48,174 bases of DNA, from NCBI GenBank assembly GCA_017407515.1, contig JAFQWH010000027.1:1-48174 (forward strand), given 5' to 3'. Below are positions 16,624-24,548 of the stretch, piece by piece (the first letter of the stretch is position 1; every line of letters begins with the position of its first letter). The position numbers and the translations under genes are program-made. The notes beneath the pieces were generated by a model that did not search any database, had not been told where the DNA came from, and was given only the letters and a program-made list of their open reading frames with translations. Origin of the DNA: Clostridia bacterium (GTDB taxonomy: Bacteria > Bacillota > Clostridia > UBA1381 > UBA9506).

Positions 16624-16669
16624 TGATATGGCTTATTCCGGTATTATACTTGTTTTATGGGGGAAGAAA

Positions 16670-18037
16670 ATGAAGAAAAACAGCGTAAATATGTTGTCAG
16701 GTTCAATTTATAAGGGGTTACTTTCCATAACCATACCGATCATGATCATGAACGTTATGCAAACCATGTTTAACGTTGTGGATATGTCGGTTTTAGGAAA
16801 GTTTGTGAATGACACCGCCGTTGGTTCTGTCGGGGCTTGCGGCACTTTGATTACGCTTTGTACCAGCCTTTTAATCGGCATCGCCTCAGGTGCCAATGTT
16901 GTTGTTGCAAAGCATATTGGCAAAGGTGACAGAGAACATGCAGAAAAAGCTGTCGGTTGTGCTATTTTATTCTCCGTTGTGGGGGGCCTTACCCTGACCG
17001 TCATCGGTTTAAGCTGTGCCGAAATCTTTCTTAGATGGATAAACTGTCCCGAAGAACTTTTCGGGCAGGCTGTAATTTATTTTAGAATATATTTTTTGGG
17101 TGTTCCCGTTATCATGTTTTATAATTTTTGTGCCGCAATTCTTCGCTCAATAGGTGACACAAAACGACCCATGCTGTTTTTAATGCTTGGGGGTATTATA
17201 AAAATTTTATTAAATCTTTTCTTTATCACTGTATTTAATATGACTGTTGAGGGTGTAGCCATTGCCACAATTATTGCAAACGCCATCGCAGGCGGACTTT
17301 GCTTTACGGTTATGCTCAGAAGCCGTGATATGATTCATTTCAACTATAAAAGCATGAAATTCTACGGGGCTGAGATTAAGGAGATGCTTTTTATCGGCGT
17401 TCCAACCGGTGTTCAAAGTGCTCTCTACTCTTTGGCAAACACCGTAATTGCCACTGCTGTTAACGGTTTCGGAGCTGATGCAACAACAGGGCTTTCCATC
17501 GCAAATCAATTTGACGGTATGCTTTACCAAATTGTACACGCCCCGTCCCTGGCAATTATTCCTTATGTCGCACAAAATATTGGTGCAAAAAATATTAAAA
17601 GAGCAAAAGAAGCTATTATAAAATCTATTATCATTACAATTTGCTTCGGTGCTTCTATTGGTTCGCTATCCGCTATTTTCTCCGCACAGCTTTCGTCAAT
17701 TATGTCTTCTACGCCTAACGTAATTATGTACTCTCAGCAGAAAATGGTTATCGTGTCAAGTACATATTTTATTTGCGGTATCAACGAAGTTCTTTCGGGT
17801 GCCCTTCGAGGCATGGGAAAACCGATGATTCCTACCATTTCAACGCTCATATTTATGTGTGCTTTAAGATTTTTCTGGGTTTACTTCGTTTTCCCGTATT
17901 GCAAAACGCTAACATTCCTCTATCTGGTATGGCCTATCGGTTGGATTTTATGTATTATTACTGCAGTTCTTGTCCTGGTTCCTGCCATTTCAAAAATGAA
18001 AAAGAATTTTCAGTTAGAGATAGCTCAGAATGGCTGA
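16670..18037 (+). CDS. MATE family efflux transporter
   Basis: 455 residues from the ATG at 16670, which follows GGGGGAAGA; the longer frame from 16628 begins inside the promoter. Twelve hydrophobic segments in two homologous halves fit the MATE (NorM/DinF-like) family, which exports drugs or metabolites using Na+ or H+. Conserved features include VVDMSVLGKFV near residue 37 and ALRGMGKPMIPTI in the second half. The divergent AraC-type gene probably controls it. A strong terminator follows the stop. Confidence 0.9.
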   Translation: MKKNSVNMLSGSIYKGLLSITIPIMIMNVMQTMFNVVDMSVLGKFVNDTAVGSVGACGTLITLCTSLLIGIASGANVVVAKHIGKGDREHAEKAVGCAILFSVVGGLTLTVIGLSCAEIFLRWINCPEELFGQAVIYFRIYFLGVPVIMFYNFCAAILRSIGDTKRPMLFLMLGGIIKILLNLFFITVFNMTVEGVAIATIIANAIAGGLCFTVMLRSRDMIHFNYKSMKFYGAEIKEMLFIGVPTGVQSALYSLANTVIATAVNGFGADATTGLSIANQFDGMLYQIVHAPSLAIIPYVAQNIGAKNIKRAKEAIIKSIIITICFGASIGSLSAIFSAQLSSIMSSTPNVIMYSQQKMVIVSSTYFICGINEVLSGALRGMGKPMIPTISTLIFMCALRFFWVYFVFPYCKTLTFLYLVWPIGWILCIITAVLVLVPAISKMKKNFQLEIAQNG

Positions 18038-18061: not shown

Positions 18062-18098
18062 GAGGTTGTCTGTTTAAACAGACAACCTCTTGTTTTTT
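18062..18098 (+). terminator. Terminator of the MATE gene
   Basis: Perfect 28-bp palindrome (18062-18089, GAGGTTGTCTGTTT and its complement) followed by TTGTTTTTT. The reverse strand also ends in a short T run, so it may act both ways. Confidence 0.88.
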
Positions 18099-18138: not shown

Positions 18139-18166
18139 AAAAAACGGAGCCCGAAGGCTCCGTTTT
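18139..18166 (-). terminator. Duplicated copy of the E1 terminator
   Basis: On the minus strand an 11-bp stem with GGAGCC, TTCG loop and GGCTCC, flanked by A and T runs. It is identical to the terminator at 19253-19280. Since the adjoining E1 copy is dead, it now probably ends the transcript of the PHP gene. Confidence 0.85.
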
Positions 18167-18185
18167 ATGTTTGTGCTGATGTAAA

Positions 18186-18450
18186 TCAAACACCCAGTTT
18201 GTTCTTTCTGATCTGCTCTGTTTCGGTGATGTTCTGAGCAATGGTGTTAAGTGCAGAACCTGCGATAGCAGCCTCAGAAATCAGGGAAGTTAAAGAATCT
18301 GTGATACTGCAGAGATTCTGTCAGACCCTGATATACAGCATAAGCATCGCCCCAGTCAGGGTTACCTTCACCGTAAGCAACTAAGGTCGGGGCATCATAG
18401 AATTTGTCAATAATTACTTCAAACAGACCGTCACGCAGCTGGTAAACCTT
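18186..18450 (-). pseudogene. Internally deleted, frameshifted remnant of a 2-oxo acid dehydrogenase E1 gene
   Basis: Three pieces of the E1 gene are joined in the same order: counterpart of 19300-19343, then 19509-19549, then 20156-20352. The two missing blocks (about 174 and 615 bases, both multiples of three) are bounded by 9-bp direct repeats, TTTCGGTGA and GCAGAACCT, each left once at the junction. Read on the minus strand it gives about 58 residues like the start of the E1 beta part ([11 protein letters not shown] onward). A one-base insertion near 18290 then shifts the frame and brings a stop; the C-terminal KNKLGV is found in another frame. No start codon or N-terminal part remains. 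Homology to the intact gene stops abruptly at 18450. Confidence 0.9.
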
Positions 18451-18492: not shown

Positions 18493-19164
18493 TTACAGTT
18501 GATCGGTCAGAATCAGCTCATACGAACCATTTTTCAAAACAGATAACAGCACCTTGCTATCCGTAATTTCTGTTTGTGTAACGATACCGCTTCTTGCAAA
18601 ATCCTGAGGCTGATGTGCATCAGAACCGGCTATGGCTTTCTTCCCAAACATTTCCGCCCAATTAAGAGCAATGCTGTTTCTTGAATCATGTCTTGGATGT
18701 GAGTTAAAACCCTCTATCCCGTCAAGATGTGACGGGTCTACAATGGTAATTTCGTTGCGAAAAGGATGTGCCTGAAACACCATGAGATTATAACTATGAG
18801 CAAACTCACAAAACTCCGGTAAGCCAAACCGATATAACTTCGGCTCGTTTATTAAGGCATATTCCACATCACCAAAAATCAAATAGTCATTTGCAGGGTA
18901 GTCCGATAAGCTAATTTCCATGCCCAAAATCACGTTAATTTTACCCTCTGCGGCTTTTTGGGCAGCATGATAACCACACAGAAAATGTTCCGGTTCATTG
19001 ACCTCACCAAATCTGCCAATATGTCTGTGACCATAATGGTCTGTAATAACCAAAGTGGAATACCCCTCACGAATATACGCCTTGACAACATCCTCTGCCA
19101 TGACCTTACCGCAAATGCTACTTTCCCCGGTGTGACAGTGCAGTTCTGTTTTAAAATCTACCAT
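18493..19164 (-). CDS. PHP domain metal-dependent hydrolase
   Basis: 223 residues from the ATG at 19164, which has AAAGGGA ahead; an in-frame ATG at 19182 lacks one. Metal-ligand motifs of the polymerase-and-histidinol-phosphatase superfamily are present in order: ELHCHT near the N-terminus, ITDHYGH, QAHPFR and GSDAHQP. Such small stand-alone PHP proteins are phosphoesterases or nucleoside-phosphate/histidinol-phosphate-type hydrolases; the substrate is unknown here. It stands between the E1 remnant and the intact E1 gene. It must therefore have been placed between the two copies or been part of the original duplicated segment. Confidence 0.82.
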   Translation of the reverse strand: MVDFKTELHCHTGESSICGKVMAEDVVKAYIREGYSTLVITDHYGHRHIGRFGEVNEPEHFLCGYHAAQKAAEGKINVILGMEISLSDYPANDYLIFGDVEYALINEPKLYRFGLPEFCEFAHSYNLMVFQAHPFRNEITIVDPSHLDGIEGFNSHPRHDSRNSIALNWAEMFGKKAIAGSDAHQPQDFARSGIVTQTEITDSKVLLSVLKNGSYELILTDQL

Positions 19165-19252
19165 AATAAAAGTCCCTTTCATCTACAGGTTTTTACCGCC
19201 ATGATACATTTTCACTATTATATCACATTCTTTCACTTTCCGCAATCCAAAT

Positions 19253-19280
19253 AAAAAACGGAGCCCGAAGGCTCCGTTTT
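19253..19280 (-). terminator. Terminator of the dehydrogenase operon
   Basis: 11-bp stem whose apical part is GGAGCC-TTCG-GGCTCC, a C(UUCG)G tetraloop known for high stability, followed by a T run. It begins 20 bases after the E1 stop. Confidence 0.92.
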
Positions 19281-19299
19281 ATGTTTGTGCTGATGTAAA

Positions 19300-21774
19300 T
19301 CAAACACCCAGTTTGTTCTTTCTGATCTGCTCTGTTTCGGTGAAGTTGGTTTTAGCAACATGACCGGGCAGGGGCAGAATCTTTTCATGGATAGCATCGA
19401 TGATCCATTCCTTCTGCGGGAAGAATTCAGCGTCCAACTCGTAGCAAGGAGTGATCCAGTTCTGTGCACCAACAACAACCGGCGGAGCATCTAAGTAATC
19501 AAATGCCATTTCGGTGATGTTCTGAGCGATGGTGTTCAGTGCAGAACCTCTGGTACAAGCATCACTTGCCAGAACGATTCTACCGGTCTTCTTAACAGAT
19601 TCCAGAACCTTTTCATAGTTGAAGGGAACGATGGTTCTAGCGTCAATAACTTCAGCAGAGATACCATATTTCTCTTCCAGTTCTTTCGCTGCATCCAGTG
19701 CACGGTACAGGGTAGCACCGATGGTCAGGATTGTAACGTCCTTACCTTCTTTCTTGATGTCGGGCTCGCCGATTTCTACTTCATAGTAGCCTTCGGGAAC
19801 GCCACCTTCGTGGAACTGTTCGCCAACGTCATAAATTCTCTGGCTCTCGAATACGATAACGGGGTCAGTGCCGTTTAAAGCAGAGTTCATGATACCCTTA
19901 GCATCGTACGGAGTTACAGGGAATACAACCTTCAGGCCGGGAACGTGTGCACACATGCTGGTCCAGTCCTGAGAGTGCTGAGCACCGTATTTAGAACCAA
20001 CGGATACACGAATGATAACCGGCATCTTCAGAACGCCTGCACTCATGGACTGCCATTTAGCCAGCTGGTTGAAGATTTCATCACCACAGCAGCCGATAAA
20101 GTCACAGTACATGATTTCAGCGATAACACGACCGCCGCTCATAGCGTAACCAACAGCAGAACCTGCGATAGCAGACTCGGAAATCGGGGAGTTGAAGAAT
20201 CTGTGATAGGGCAGAGATTCTGTCAGACCCTGATATACAGCGTAAGCACCGCCCCAGTCACGGTTATCTTCACCGTAAGCAACTAAGGTCGGATCTTCAT
20301 AGAATTTATCAATGATAGCTTCGAACAGACCGTCACGCAGCTGGTAAACCTTGTTCTTGGAAACGGGTTTGCCGTTCTTGTCGAAACCGAAACGTTCTTT
20401 CTTTGCAATCTTCTGAACTCTGGGGTTTTCTTCCTTCGGAATTAAAACGTCAGGAGTTCTGTCTTCCATCTTTGCAATCTTCTGATTGGAGAACATCAGG
20501 TCAGCAATGATGTTGGGGTTCTTACCAAGGTCCATTCTGGGGGAAACTTCGTCGTCGATAGCCAGTTTAACGATCTTCATCATTCTTTCTCTGATGTCTT
20601 CACGCATAGCAGCAAAGTCGTCAGATTTAGCAACCTTAGCTTCAACCAGCTTCTTCTCGAAGTTAACCAGAACGTCATGCTCTGCCCACTTGTCAACCTC
20701 TTCTTTCGTTCTGTAAGTAGAAGCATCAGAGGGAGAGTGACCGGTCATTCTGTATGTCAGAGTATCCATCAGAACAGGACCACCCTGGTTATTTAAGATG
20801 TCAATCTTTCTTCTCATAGCGTCGATAACTGCCAGCGGATTGTAACCGTCAACACGTTCAGCATGGAGCTGAGTCGGGCTAACACCGGCACCAACACGAG
20901 CCAGGATATTGTAAGCCATGGTTTCACCAACAGTCTGGCCACCCATACCATAGAGGTTATTGAAGAAGTTGAAGATGATGGGCAGACCCTTGTTGTGACC
21001 TTCTTCCCACAGCTGGGTAATCTGGTCCATAGAGCCCATGTTCAGAGCTTCCCAAACAGGACCACGACCCATAGAAGCGTCACCAACGTTAGAAACAACG
21101 ATACCGGGCTTACCATTGATTCTCTTGAACATGGAAGCACCCATAGCGATGGTAGCACTACCACCAACGATAGCGTTGTTGGGGTAAATACCGAAGGGAG
21201 TGAAGAATGCGTGCATAGAGCCGCCCAGACCCTTATTGAAGCCTGTTTCACGAGCAAAGATTTCAGCCAGTGCACCGTAGAGCAGGAAGTCGATCGCTAA
21301 ATCTTTAACGTTACCCTTGTCTTTTTCTTTGCCTTCAACAACTTTGTAGGTTGCACCGTCAAAGAAGGTTTCCATATCAGTCAGCAGTTCTTTGTCGTCT
21401 AACTTGTGGATACAGGAAAGACCCTTAGCCAGGATTTCACCATGGCTTCTGTGAGAACCGAAGATGTAGTCGTTCTTATCTAAGAGATAAGCCTGACCAA
21501 CAGCAGAAGCTTCCTGACCTAAAGAAAGGTGAGCAGGACCGGGGTTGTTGTAAGCGATACCCTGGTATTCGCTCTTGGTCTTAATATCGAGGAGCATCTG
21601 TTCGAACTCACGGATGATTGCCATGTCGCGGTAAATACGCATGAAATCTTCCTTAGAAAAGTTCTTGCTTTCTTCTTTAATAGTTTTGTTGTACTGGTTC
21701 ACCGGGATGGGCTCAAATTCAACAAATCCAGGCTGTCTGAGCACATCGGGATCCATAAATTGGGACTTCGGCAT
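19300..21774 (-). CDS. 2-oxo acid dehydrogenase E1, fused alpha and beta subunits
   Basis: 824 residues. Residues 1-430 match the thiamine-diphosphate E1 alpha fold ([30 protein letters not shown]). Residues 474-824 match E1 beta (VAYGED near the start, [28 protein letters not shown]). E1 decarboxylates a 2-oxo acid or acetoin and passes the acyl group to lipoate on E2. The alpha-beta fusion and an unusual cofactor motif (GDA at 231-233, NN at 272-273, a spacing about 11 longer than usual) set it apart from ordinary PdhA/AcoA. The substrate cannot be assigned. AAAGGAAG precedes the ATG, 30 bases after the E3 gene. Codon use is that of a highly expressed gene. A decayed copy lies downstream. 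Confidence 0.9.
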
Positions 21775-21804: not shown

Positions 21805-23169
21805 TTACAGCTGAAAAATTCCTTCACGGACAATTTCACAAACGGTAGGATGGGGGAATACGATTTCCTTAATGTCATCTACACGCATTTCGGTTTCAAT
21901 CATGATACCGGCAGAAACAATAATTTCAGATGCGTAGTTAGACAGCATATGGCAACCAACCAGACGGCGGGTAGCTTTGTCAACGATAACCTTGCAGATA
22001 CCGTCGCCACCTTCGTTTTCAGCAACATAACGGCCGCTGTAATTCATGGTCAGGTTAGCAACCTCAACGTCCATACCCTTAGCTTTAGCGGTTTCTTCTG
22101 TTTCGCCAACGCCGCCAACTTCAGGGTTGGTGTAAATAACAGAAGGAATTGCGTTGTAACGCATAATGTCTTTCTTACCTAAGATGTTGTTGATTGCAAC
22201 TTCAGCTTCGCGGTAAGCGGTATGAGCCAGCATAGAATGACCGTTAACGTCACCAACAGCATATACGTTGGGGATATTGGTCTTCATGAAGCGGTCTGTT
22301 ACGATAGCACCGCGTTCGGTTAAAACGCCTAAGGATTCAAGGCCAATGCCGGCAGTTGAAGCACGACGACCGATGGACAGCAGAACCTTGTCAGCCTTAA
22401 CTTCCTCAGTCTTGCCGTCTTTTTCATACACAACAGCGTCTTTCTTAACCTCTGTTACCTTAGCACCCAGTTTAAAGGTGATGCCCTTCTTTTCATAGTT
22501 CTTCATTAAGAGCTTAGAAATTTCTGCGTCAGTCGGGCCGGCAATCTTATCCATCATTTCAACAACGGTTACTTTAGAACCTGCAGAATTGAAGTAAGAA
22601 GCCATTTCAAGACCGATAACGCCGCCACCAACGATAACCAGCTCAGCAGGCACTTCTTCCAGATCCAGAATTTCGCGGTTTGTCAGAACTGTACCAGCTT
22701 CAAAGTTTTCCTTAACGCCGGGAATCGGAGGCATAACCGGCATAGAACCGGTTGCAATGATTAAACGAGCACCGGTGTAGCGTTCGTCGCCAACTTTAAC
22801 AACGATTTCGTTGCCTTCTTTGCCGTCGATAACGCCTTCACCTTCAACAACGGTAACCTTGTTTGCTTTCATCTGTGCACGGATACCGCTGACCAGTGTT
22901 TTAACAACCTTCTGTTTACGAGCGATAACCGCTTTGTGGTCAAACTTAACGTCACCACAGGTTACGCCGTAATGGTCGGAAAAACGAGCATAGTCATAAA
23001 TTTTTGCTGAATACAGCAGTGCTTTTGAGGGAATGCAGCCTTCGTTTAAGCAAACACCGCCCAAAAACCGCTTTTCAATTAACAGGGTGTTAAGGCCTGC
23101 GTGACCGGCACGCTCTGCAGCCAGGTATCCACCGGGGCCGCCACCCAATACGATTAAATCATAACCCAT
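21805..23169 (-). CDS. lpdA: Dihydrolipoyl dehydrogenase (E3)
   Basis: 454 residues, a complete FAD disulfide oxidoreductase that reoxidises the lipoyl arm of E2 with NAD+. The FAD motif GGGPGGY is at 9-15, the redox-active pair is Cys40/Cys45 in GGVCLNEGCIPSK, and the NAD motif VGGGVIGLEMA lies in the middle. The C-terminal catalytic dyad is His440/Glu445 in HPTVCE. There is no N-terminal lipoyl domain. It lies between the E2 and E1 genes with 29- and 30-base gaps and a good AAGGAAGG site, so it is dedicated to this complex. Confidence 0.95.
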   Translation of the reverse strand: MGYDLIVLGGGPGGYLAAERAGHAGLNTLLIEKRFLGGVCLNEGCIPSKALLYSAKIYDYARFSDHYGVTCGDVKFDHKAVIARKQKVVKTLVSGIRAQMKANKVTVVEGEGVIDGKEGNEIVVKVGDERYTGARLIIATGSMPVMPPIPGVKENFEAGTVLTNREILDLEEVPAELVIVGGGVIGLEMASYFNSAGSKVTVVEMMDKIAGPTDAEISKLLMKNYEKKGITFKLGAKVTEVKKDAVVYEKDGKTEEVKADKVLLSIGRRASTAGIGLESLGVLTERGAIVTDRFMKTNIPNVYAVGDVNGHSMLAHTAYREAEVAINNILGKKDIMRYNAIPSVIYTNPEVGGVGETEETAKAKGMDVEVANLTMNYSGRYVAENEGGDGICKVIVDKATRRLVGCHMLSNYASEIIVSAGIMIETEMRVDDIKEIVFPHPTVCEIVREGIFQL

Positions 23170-23198: not shown

Positions 23199-24548
23199 TT
23201 ATTTAGCTAAAAGTACGCTGAAGTTTTCCAGATTGTTCTTTAAGTCTTTTAAGAACTTAGCAGCGGGAGCACCGTCAACTGCTCTGTGGTCAAATGTTAA
23301 GGACAGACCCATTGCAGGATAGTACTTAATTTCGCCGTCAACTTCTTTAGCACGCTGAACGATGGTGTCAACACCTAAGATACCGGTCTGGGGTGCGTTT
23401 AATACCGGTGTAAAGGACTCGATACCGAAAGAACCCAGGTTGGTAACAGTAAAGCTACCGCCAGTTAATAAGTCGGGGCTGATAGTGCCGCCCTGGCAAG
23501 CACCTGCAAGGTCTTTTGTTTCAGCACTGATTTCAGCCAGAGACTTAAGCTCAGAGCAGAAAATGGTGGGAACCATCAGGCCGCGGGGTGTGTCAACAGC
23601 AACGCCTAAGTTAACATGGTTAAAGCGACGCATTTTGTCGTCTAACATATGAGCGTTTAAGTCTTCATGACCGTTAAGCAGTGTTCTTGAAACTGCGTAC
23701 AGAACGATGTCGTTTAAAGTGATGTTGCCAAGACCCAGTTTTTCTGCGCTATTCTTGAGTTTCTTTCTGTATGCCATAATCTCTGTTGCATCGAAGCTGG
23801 TGTTTAAGGTCAGCTGTGCGGTGGTGGACAGAGAGTTGTGCATTGACTTGGAGATAACCTTTCTGATGTTGGTCAGCGGTGTATCTGTGTAAGCTACGCC
23901 TTCTTCTGCTGCCATAGCCTCAGAAACAGCCTGAGCAACGGGCTTCTTCAAGTCGCCGGTGGTTACGCGGCCGCCAATGCCGGTGCCTTCGAACTGGTCG
24001 GTGCTGCCGGCAGCTGCTGCAGCTGCTGCTTTAGTAAATGCAACGCCACTCTGAGCTAAAGCTTCAACGTCACGTTCAATGATTCTGCCATTGGGGCCAC
24101 TGCCTTCAGCAAAACGAACATCAACGCCCAGCTTTTCAGCGTGGTTTTTCGCACGGGGAGAAATGAATACGTTTTCTTTTGCGGTGTTAGAAAGAGCCGG
24201 TGCTGCTACTGCTGCAGGTGCTGCAGCGGCCTGAGGAGCCTCTTCTTTTGCTGCTTCAGCAGGAGCCTCGTCTGCTGCACCCTCAGGACGGAATGCAGAA
24301 ACATCTTCCCCTTCTTCACCGATAACGCAAACGTTTAATAAGCATTCAACATCGTCGCCCTCTTCAAAAAAGATTTCCAAAAGAGTACCAGCGACAGTTG
24401 CTTCCTCATCAAAGGTAGCCTTATCTGTTTCATAGGTAAACAGCATATCGCCTACGTTTACCTGATCGCCTTTTTGTTTATGCCACTTTCCAATGATACA
24501 GCTTTCAACAGACTGTCCCTGTCTGGGCATAATAACCGGTGTTGCCAT
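23199..24548 (-). CDS. Dihydrolipoamide acyltransferase (E2)
   Basis: 449 residues. One lipoyl domain (1-80) with the lipoylated Lys43 in YETDKATFD is followed by an Ala/Pro/Glu linker (90-125) and a peripheral-subunit-binding domain (127-163, ISPRAKNHAEKLGVD then GRIIERDVEAL). A second Ala-rich stretch leads to the catalytic core (220-449) with His421 and Asp425 in DHRAVDG. A second GTGIGGRVTTGDL at about 188-200 looks like the end of another subunit-binding domain. It is the scaffold of the complex, transferring the acyl group to CoA. The acyl specificity (acetyl, glycolyl, branched-chain or other) cannot be told. Confidence 0.94.
   Translation of the reverse strand: MATPVIMPRQGQSVESCIIGKWHKQKGDQVNVGDMLFTYETDKATFDEEATVAGTLLEIFFEEGDDVECLLNVCVIGEEGEDVSAFRPEGAADEAPAEAAKEEAPQAAAAPAAVAAPALSNTAKENVFISPRAKNHAEKLGVDVRFAEGSGPNGRIIERDVEALAQSGVAFTKAAAAAAAGSTDQFEGTGIGGRVTTGDLKKPVAQAVSEAMAAEEGVAYTDTPLTNIRKVISKSMHNSLSTTAQLTLNTSFDATEIMAYRKKLKNSAEKLGLGNITLNDIVLYAVSRTLLNGHEDLNAHMLDDKMRRFNHVNLGVAVDTPRGLMVPTIFCSELKSLAEISAETKDLAGACQGGTISPDLLTGGSFTVTNLGSFGIESFTPVLNAPQTGILGVDTIVQRAKEVDGEIKYYPAMGLSLTFDHRAVDGAPAAKFLKDLKNNLENFSVLLAK

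Follow-up and report, generated by a model that had tools for sequence, protein, structure and literature searches.

Why does a second, broken 3′-end of a housekeeping enzyme gene lie downstream of the intact gene, with a PHP-domain gene between the two? The question is raised by a locus in a gut-type Clostridia bacterium that is known from metagenomes only. The window, that is, the whole stretch of 48,174 nucleotides that was analysed, is one contig (C111) of a 1.42-Mb draft genome comprising 119 contigs, which is 80.5% complete and 3.56% contaminated. Judged by the enzyme gene itself (E1), the nearest named relatives are metagenome-assembled Oscillospiraceae or Clostridia. Past the 3′-end of E1, the PHP-domain gene is followed by the remnant and then by a convergent MATE-type transporter gene:

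16628-18037, plus strand: MATE-type transporter gene, convergent, beyond the remnant
18493-19182, minus strand: PHP-domain gene between the two E1 3′-ends (PF02811, 2.1e-11; PF13263, 4.1e-7)
19255-19280, minus strand: terminator of the intact E1 gene
19300-21774, minus strand: intact fused E1 gene, 824 aa (PF00676, E1_dh; PF02779, Transket_pyr; PF02780, Transketolase_C)
21805-23169: E3-like gene, preceding E1 in the direction of transcription
23199-24548: E2-like gene, also preceding E1 in the direction of transcription

The domain composition of the intact gene is that of a fused alpha-beta E1 of a 2-oxoacid dehydrogenase complex. It is the sole full-length E1 copy in its genome, and it represents the parent family of the remnant at 18139-18450. 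The original prediction held that this remnant joins three parts of E1, and blastn alignment of the segment with the gene bore this out, giving exactly three collinear blocks (18253-18450 to 20156-20352, 90.4% identity; 18221-18261 to 19509-19549, 95.1%; 18139-18233 to 19253-19347, 98.9%). Comparison of the E1, E2 and E3 genes with the rest of the window revealed nothing beyond these blocks. The pieces, named p1 to p3, and their junctions are as follows:

18139-18229, minus strand: p1, a copy of the E1 3′-end (stop codon, 3′ UTR, terminator) and a 91-bp exact direct repeat of 19253-19343
18141-18166, minus strand: terminator hairpin within p1, the first intrinsic minus-strand terminator after the PHP stop codon
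18221-18229, minus strand: junction 1 word TTTCGGTGA, with an implied deletion of 174 bp (19335 to 19509)
18221-18261, minus strand: p2, a 41-bp E1 piece from 19509-19549 with two synonymous differences
18253-18261, minus strand: junction 2 word GCAGAACCT, with an implied deletion of 615 bp (19541 to 20156)
18253-18450, minus strand: p3, a 198-bp E1 piece from 20156-20352 with 18 substitutions and a 1-bp insertion

The exact repeat of p1 does not extend backward, and in the other direction the match reaches 18233 with one mismatch. The extra base in p3, predicted near 18290, was located at about 18283-18288, depending on the aligner.

Each junction carries one copy of a 9-bp word that is present twice in E1. 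As predicted, TTTCGGTGA is found at 19335 and 19509 and once at its junction (18221), while GCAGAACCT is found at 19541 and 20156 and once at its junction (18253), with further occurrence elsewhere in the window. Only three pairs of exact direct repeats reach 9 bp in the last 1.1 kb of E1, none of them is longer, and two of the three are those at the junctions. When 400,000 random deletions of 100-900 bp were simulated in this 1.1 kb, a fraction of only 4.75e-5 had microhomology of at least 9 bp. Since chance yields such junctions at a frequency of about 5e-5, the deletion signature is real, and it is confirmed that the E1-derived remnant was shortened twice at 9-bp direct repeats, chance being a very unlikely source. 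The word length is measured on present-day E1. Among the eight E1 genes of the genus that were compared, the junction 1 word is perfect at both sites in two (the resident E1 and L024) and the junction 2 word in four (the resident E1, L024, L025 and L029). L025 has a mismatch at one junction 1 site, so this repeat would have been imperfect if the source was L025-like. In the bacterial deletions between short direct repeats treated in the relevant passages of two papers, the segment and one repeat copy are lost, and the repeats measure 4-10 bp or otherwise fall below the 30-bp RecA threshold (PMC2884548, PMC11276467). The remnant resembles the cases described there in having one repeat copy at each junction and two in the intact gene, but the comparison here is made within one genome rather than between strains with and without the deletion.

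The two implied deletions, of 174 and 615 bp, are both multiples of three, from which it had been suggested that the copy may have stayed in frame until the one-base insertion. The lengths hold, but they carry no functional meaning. In the whole of E1, 24 of the 31 repeat pairs of at least 9 bp are in phase, presumably because repeated words in coding DNA encode the same residues; two in-phase deletions are thus unremarkable and no argument for continued translation. Among the frames that we checked, that of E1 lacks a methionine codon before the frameshift, so that staying in frame would not imply a function. At the protein level, the match to E1 is interrupted by two internal stops, and the longest open frame is 65 aa. 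Partial homology to E1, lost coding capacity (frameshift, no start, internal deletions) and relaxed constraint mark the segment as a dead gene remnant that derives from an E1 3′-end.

The three pieces are not of one age. In p3, 18 of 197 aligned sites differ from the resident E1, in addition to the inserted base. Nine of these differences are synonymous, each matching at least one of the seven congeneric E1 genes compared (L024-L029 and L038). The other nine are nonsynonymous and match no congener, with one matching the more distant L032 and L033. Over the same stretch, the congeners differ from the resident E1 by 109 synonymous and five nonsynonymous changes, against nine and nine in p3 (Fisher p=2.7e-6). 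The marks on p3 record one phase under purifying selection and one phase without it. When 18 random changes were placed on the resident E1, a mean of 1.9-3.2 matched a congener, compared with the nine of 18 observed (P at most 0.0006). Six differences are common to p3 and L025 where 0.2-0.4 were expected, a number never reached at any of four settings with 5000 simulations each. Limited to third positions, the null probability of the matches to any congener is 0.0004-0.0076, and part of these matches may be due to chance. In p1, by contrast, all 82 bases outside the junction word are identical to the resident E1 (0/82 differences versus 18/197 in p3; Fisher p=0.0023), while the same E1 end in L024 and L025 differs from p1 by 12% and 17%, respectively. 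The nonsynonymous class alone does not separate the two pieces (9/197 in p3 versus 0/82 in p1; p=0.062).

From the split between synonymous and nonsynonymous changes and the matches to congeners, the most probable ancestor of p3 is an E1 allele distinct from the one now resident; it was under selection, and decay followed. The p1 end, we infer, was recently homogenised or re-duplicated. A recent copy of the present E1 followed by deletions does not agree with the congener-matching changes in p3 together with the identity of p1. The original prediction of a deletion trace left after duplication of E1 therefore stands for the deletions between 9-bp repeats but not for a simple copy of the resident gene.

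A simple tandem duplication of the resident E1 in this lineage, with the PHP gene inserted between the copies, truncation and two slippage deletions, would attribute all differences to drift. Neither the tree of p3 and p2 nor the AU test of four placements (221 columns) singled out a source allele: none of the four placements was rejected, including the remnant as sister to the resident E1 (p-AU 0.25). Among the four closest sequences, one site pattern exclusively groups the remnant with the resident E1 against L024 and L025, whereas three group it with L025. Drift does not readily account for the excess of congener matches in p3, and a 9% difference in p3 next to an identical p1 would require gene conversion anyway. 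We regard this duplication as unlikely. Along the resident E1 itself, 21325-21774 was compared with the two congeners. Over the first 150 bp, the resident has 14 differences to L024 and 12 to L025, against just two between these congeners; over the next 300 bp, it closely resembles L024, while L025 stands apart. This pattern is a sign of between-species homologous recombination in E1.

A retrocopy has also to be considered, in which reverse transcription of an E1 mRNA began at the 3′-end, with template jumps at the 9-bp repeats, before the cDNA was inserted. As such an origin would predict, the homology stops precisely where the terminator T tract ends, and the copy is truncated on its 5′ side. 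Against it, p1 and p3 are of different ages and p3 is not the resident allele, and the reverse transcriptase domain PF00078 (RVT_1) is absent from this 80.5% complete genome, in a search whose control was positive in three of 14 named genomes. We consider a retrocopy extremely improbable. A repeated terminator element as the source of the common end was ruled out, because the hairpin core has only two copies in the draft genome, those in p1 and E1.

The best explanation, which we think moderately probable, is that the remnant is the displaced 3′-end of an older or other E1, which decayed, underwent the two repeat deletions and was later homogenised over p1. DNA in which the PHP gene was linked to an E1 3′-end would have entered the locus by homologous exchange within E1 and by an illegitimate joint beyond the PHP gene, pushing the former E1 3′-end downstream. 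The displaced piece would then have diverged by drift, and deletions of 615 and 174 bp between the 9-bp repeats, separate or joint, would have arisen in it by replication slippage, single-strand annealing or end joining. A RecA-type exchange with the resident E1 could later have homogenised the 91-bp end of the piece; 91 bp is longer than the RecA threshold of 30 bp given in the portion of the literature concerned, where homology-assisted illegitimate recombination is also described (PMC2884548). The geometry and the foreign or older allele fit a displacement, a step that is seen in no strain, and the displacement and homogenisation steps are reconstructed from one genome. As in the C-terminal displacement of rhs genes, as far as it is described in the relevant part of PMC2935791, a 3′-end of the same family lies silent and displaced downstream of an intact gene. 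The rhs tips of that account, however, are mutually non-homologous and occur in arrays, whereas the E1 end is homologous, single and decayed, and belongs to a housekeeping enzyme gene (PMC2935791).

The PHP gene may have been horizontally acquired, as its best foreign match lies outside the genus. Matches were found in eight of 95 genomes of the order including its own (E up to 1e-40); outside its own genome, identity peaked at 62%, in a family member of a different genus, and members of its own genus showed 34-53% identity or no match. No close donor was found among these 95 genomes. The first minus-strand terminator past the PHP stop codon lies inside p1, so the remnant probably serves passively as the terminator of the PHP gene, which is its one plausible present role. 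This use could keep the 26-bp hairpin intact, but it would leave the remainder of p1 unprotected. After the MATE gene stands a strong two-way terminator hairpin of its own (18062-18089, 12 pairs), and the hairpin of the remnant is thus not needed by MATE.

A foreign PHP gene could also have arrived together with a foreign piece of E1 by insertion with long target duplication or by homology-assisted illegitimate integration, in which case p1 would be the duplicated 91-bp target and junction 1 the integration joint. The border between identical (p1) and diverged sequence (p2 and p3) lies exactly at junction 1, and 91-bp exact direct repeats flank the PHP gene and p3-p2. Similar insertions have been published for Helicobacter pylori, as reported in passages of PMC1643837. 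The locus resembles the insertion with long target duplication of Nobusato et al. (2000), as cited there, in having an inserted gene between direct repeats. Unlike in that case, so far as that account goes, the insert is a PHP gene rather than a restriction-modification gene, it itself holds E1 sequence, and there is no strain with an empty site (PMC1643837). The same border would, however, result from gene conversion if homology is limited at a deletion junction, and none of the relatives has an empty site with E1 adjoining MATE. We give such an insertion a low but appreciable probability beside the displacement of an older E1 end.

E1 was found in nine of the ten genomes of the genus, including this one, and one of these genes is cut by a contig end. 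The original prediction proposed a search of related genomes for a full-length second copy or intermediate deletion states; neither appeared in the nine other genomes of the genus or the 19 other genomes of the family (20 examined including its own). An extra E1 fragment is absent from the former and the remnant from the latter, leaving the fragment confined to its own genome. In eight relatives, the 453-3500 bp that follow E1 contain no E1 pieces (453 bp of downstream sequence are present in G005 and 999 bp in G008), and the stretch present in these eight contains no homologue of the PHP or MATE gene of the window. In the two closest relatives, no more than about 0.5-1 kb of sequence follows E1 before the contig ends. 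These contig ends, and the fragmentation and contamination of the draft itself, could be taken to mean that the 91-bp exact repeat led the assembler to join two strains or positions. The neighbours of the p1 sequence are limited to E1, p2, the PHP gene and the MATE gene, however, and a false join in p1 would create neither the p3-p2 nor the p2-p1 joint, both of which should fall on the edge of the long repeat or outside it. An assembly artefact is very unlikely in our view.

With shorter ORFs passed over, the first gene of notable size behind E1 belongs to one of seven Pfam kinds in the eight relatives: Gly_transporter, Cons_hypoth698, Mem_trans (in two genomes), N6_N4_Mtase, NLPC_P60, DNA_gyraseB and GFO_IDH_MocA. 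Gene content directly behind E1 thus turns over, which speaks for the displacement. In two species, a repetitive, Ala/Cys-rich small protein of ~90 aa is encoded directly downstream of E1 in convergent orientation (L142:529-804 and L144:666-938, both minus strand).

The 3′-end of E1 could conceivably be a recurrent landing site, at which incoming DNA with an E1 end brings a new downstream gene and displaces the old end in an rhs-like manner, although we consider this distinctly unlikely. If it were true, almost every species of the genus would have received a different downstream gene, and the 91-bp repeats would make the PHP gene a 1.1-kb module open to loop-out or amplification. Views of E1 and of deletion mechanisms are left unchanged, and the remnant is a case of ordinary bacterial gene decay. 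It offers a worked example of the death of a bacterial gene copy, in which the selected phase and the phase of decay can be separated by their substitutions, the deletions took two of the only three repeat pairs available, and one end appears to have been re-homogenised with the living gene. If displacement held genus-wide, it would explain the fast turnover of genes just downstream of a conserved operon.
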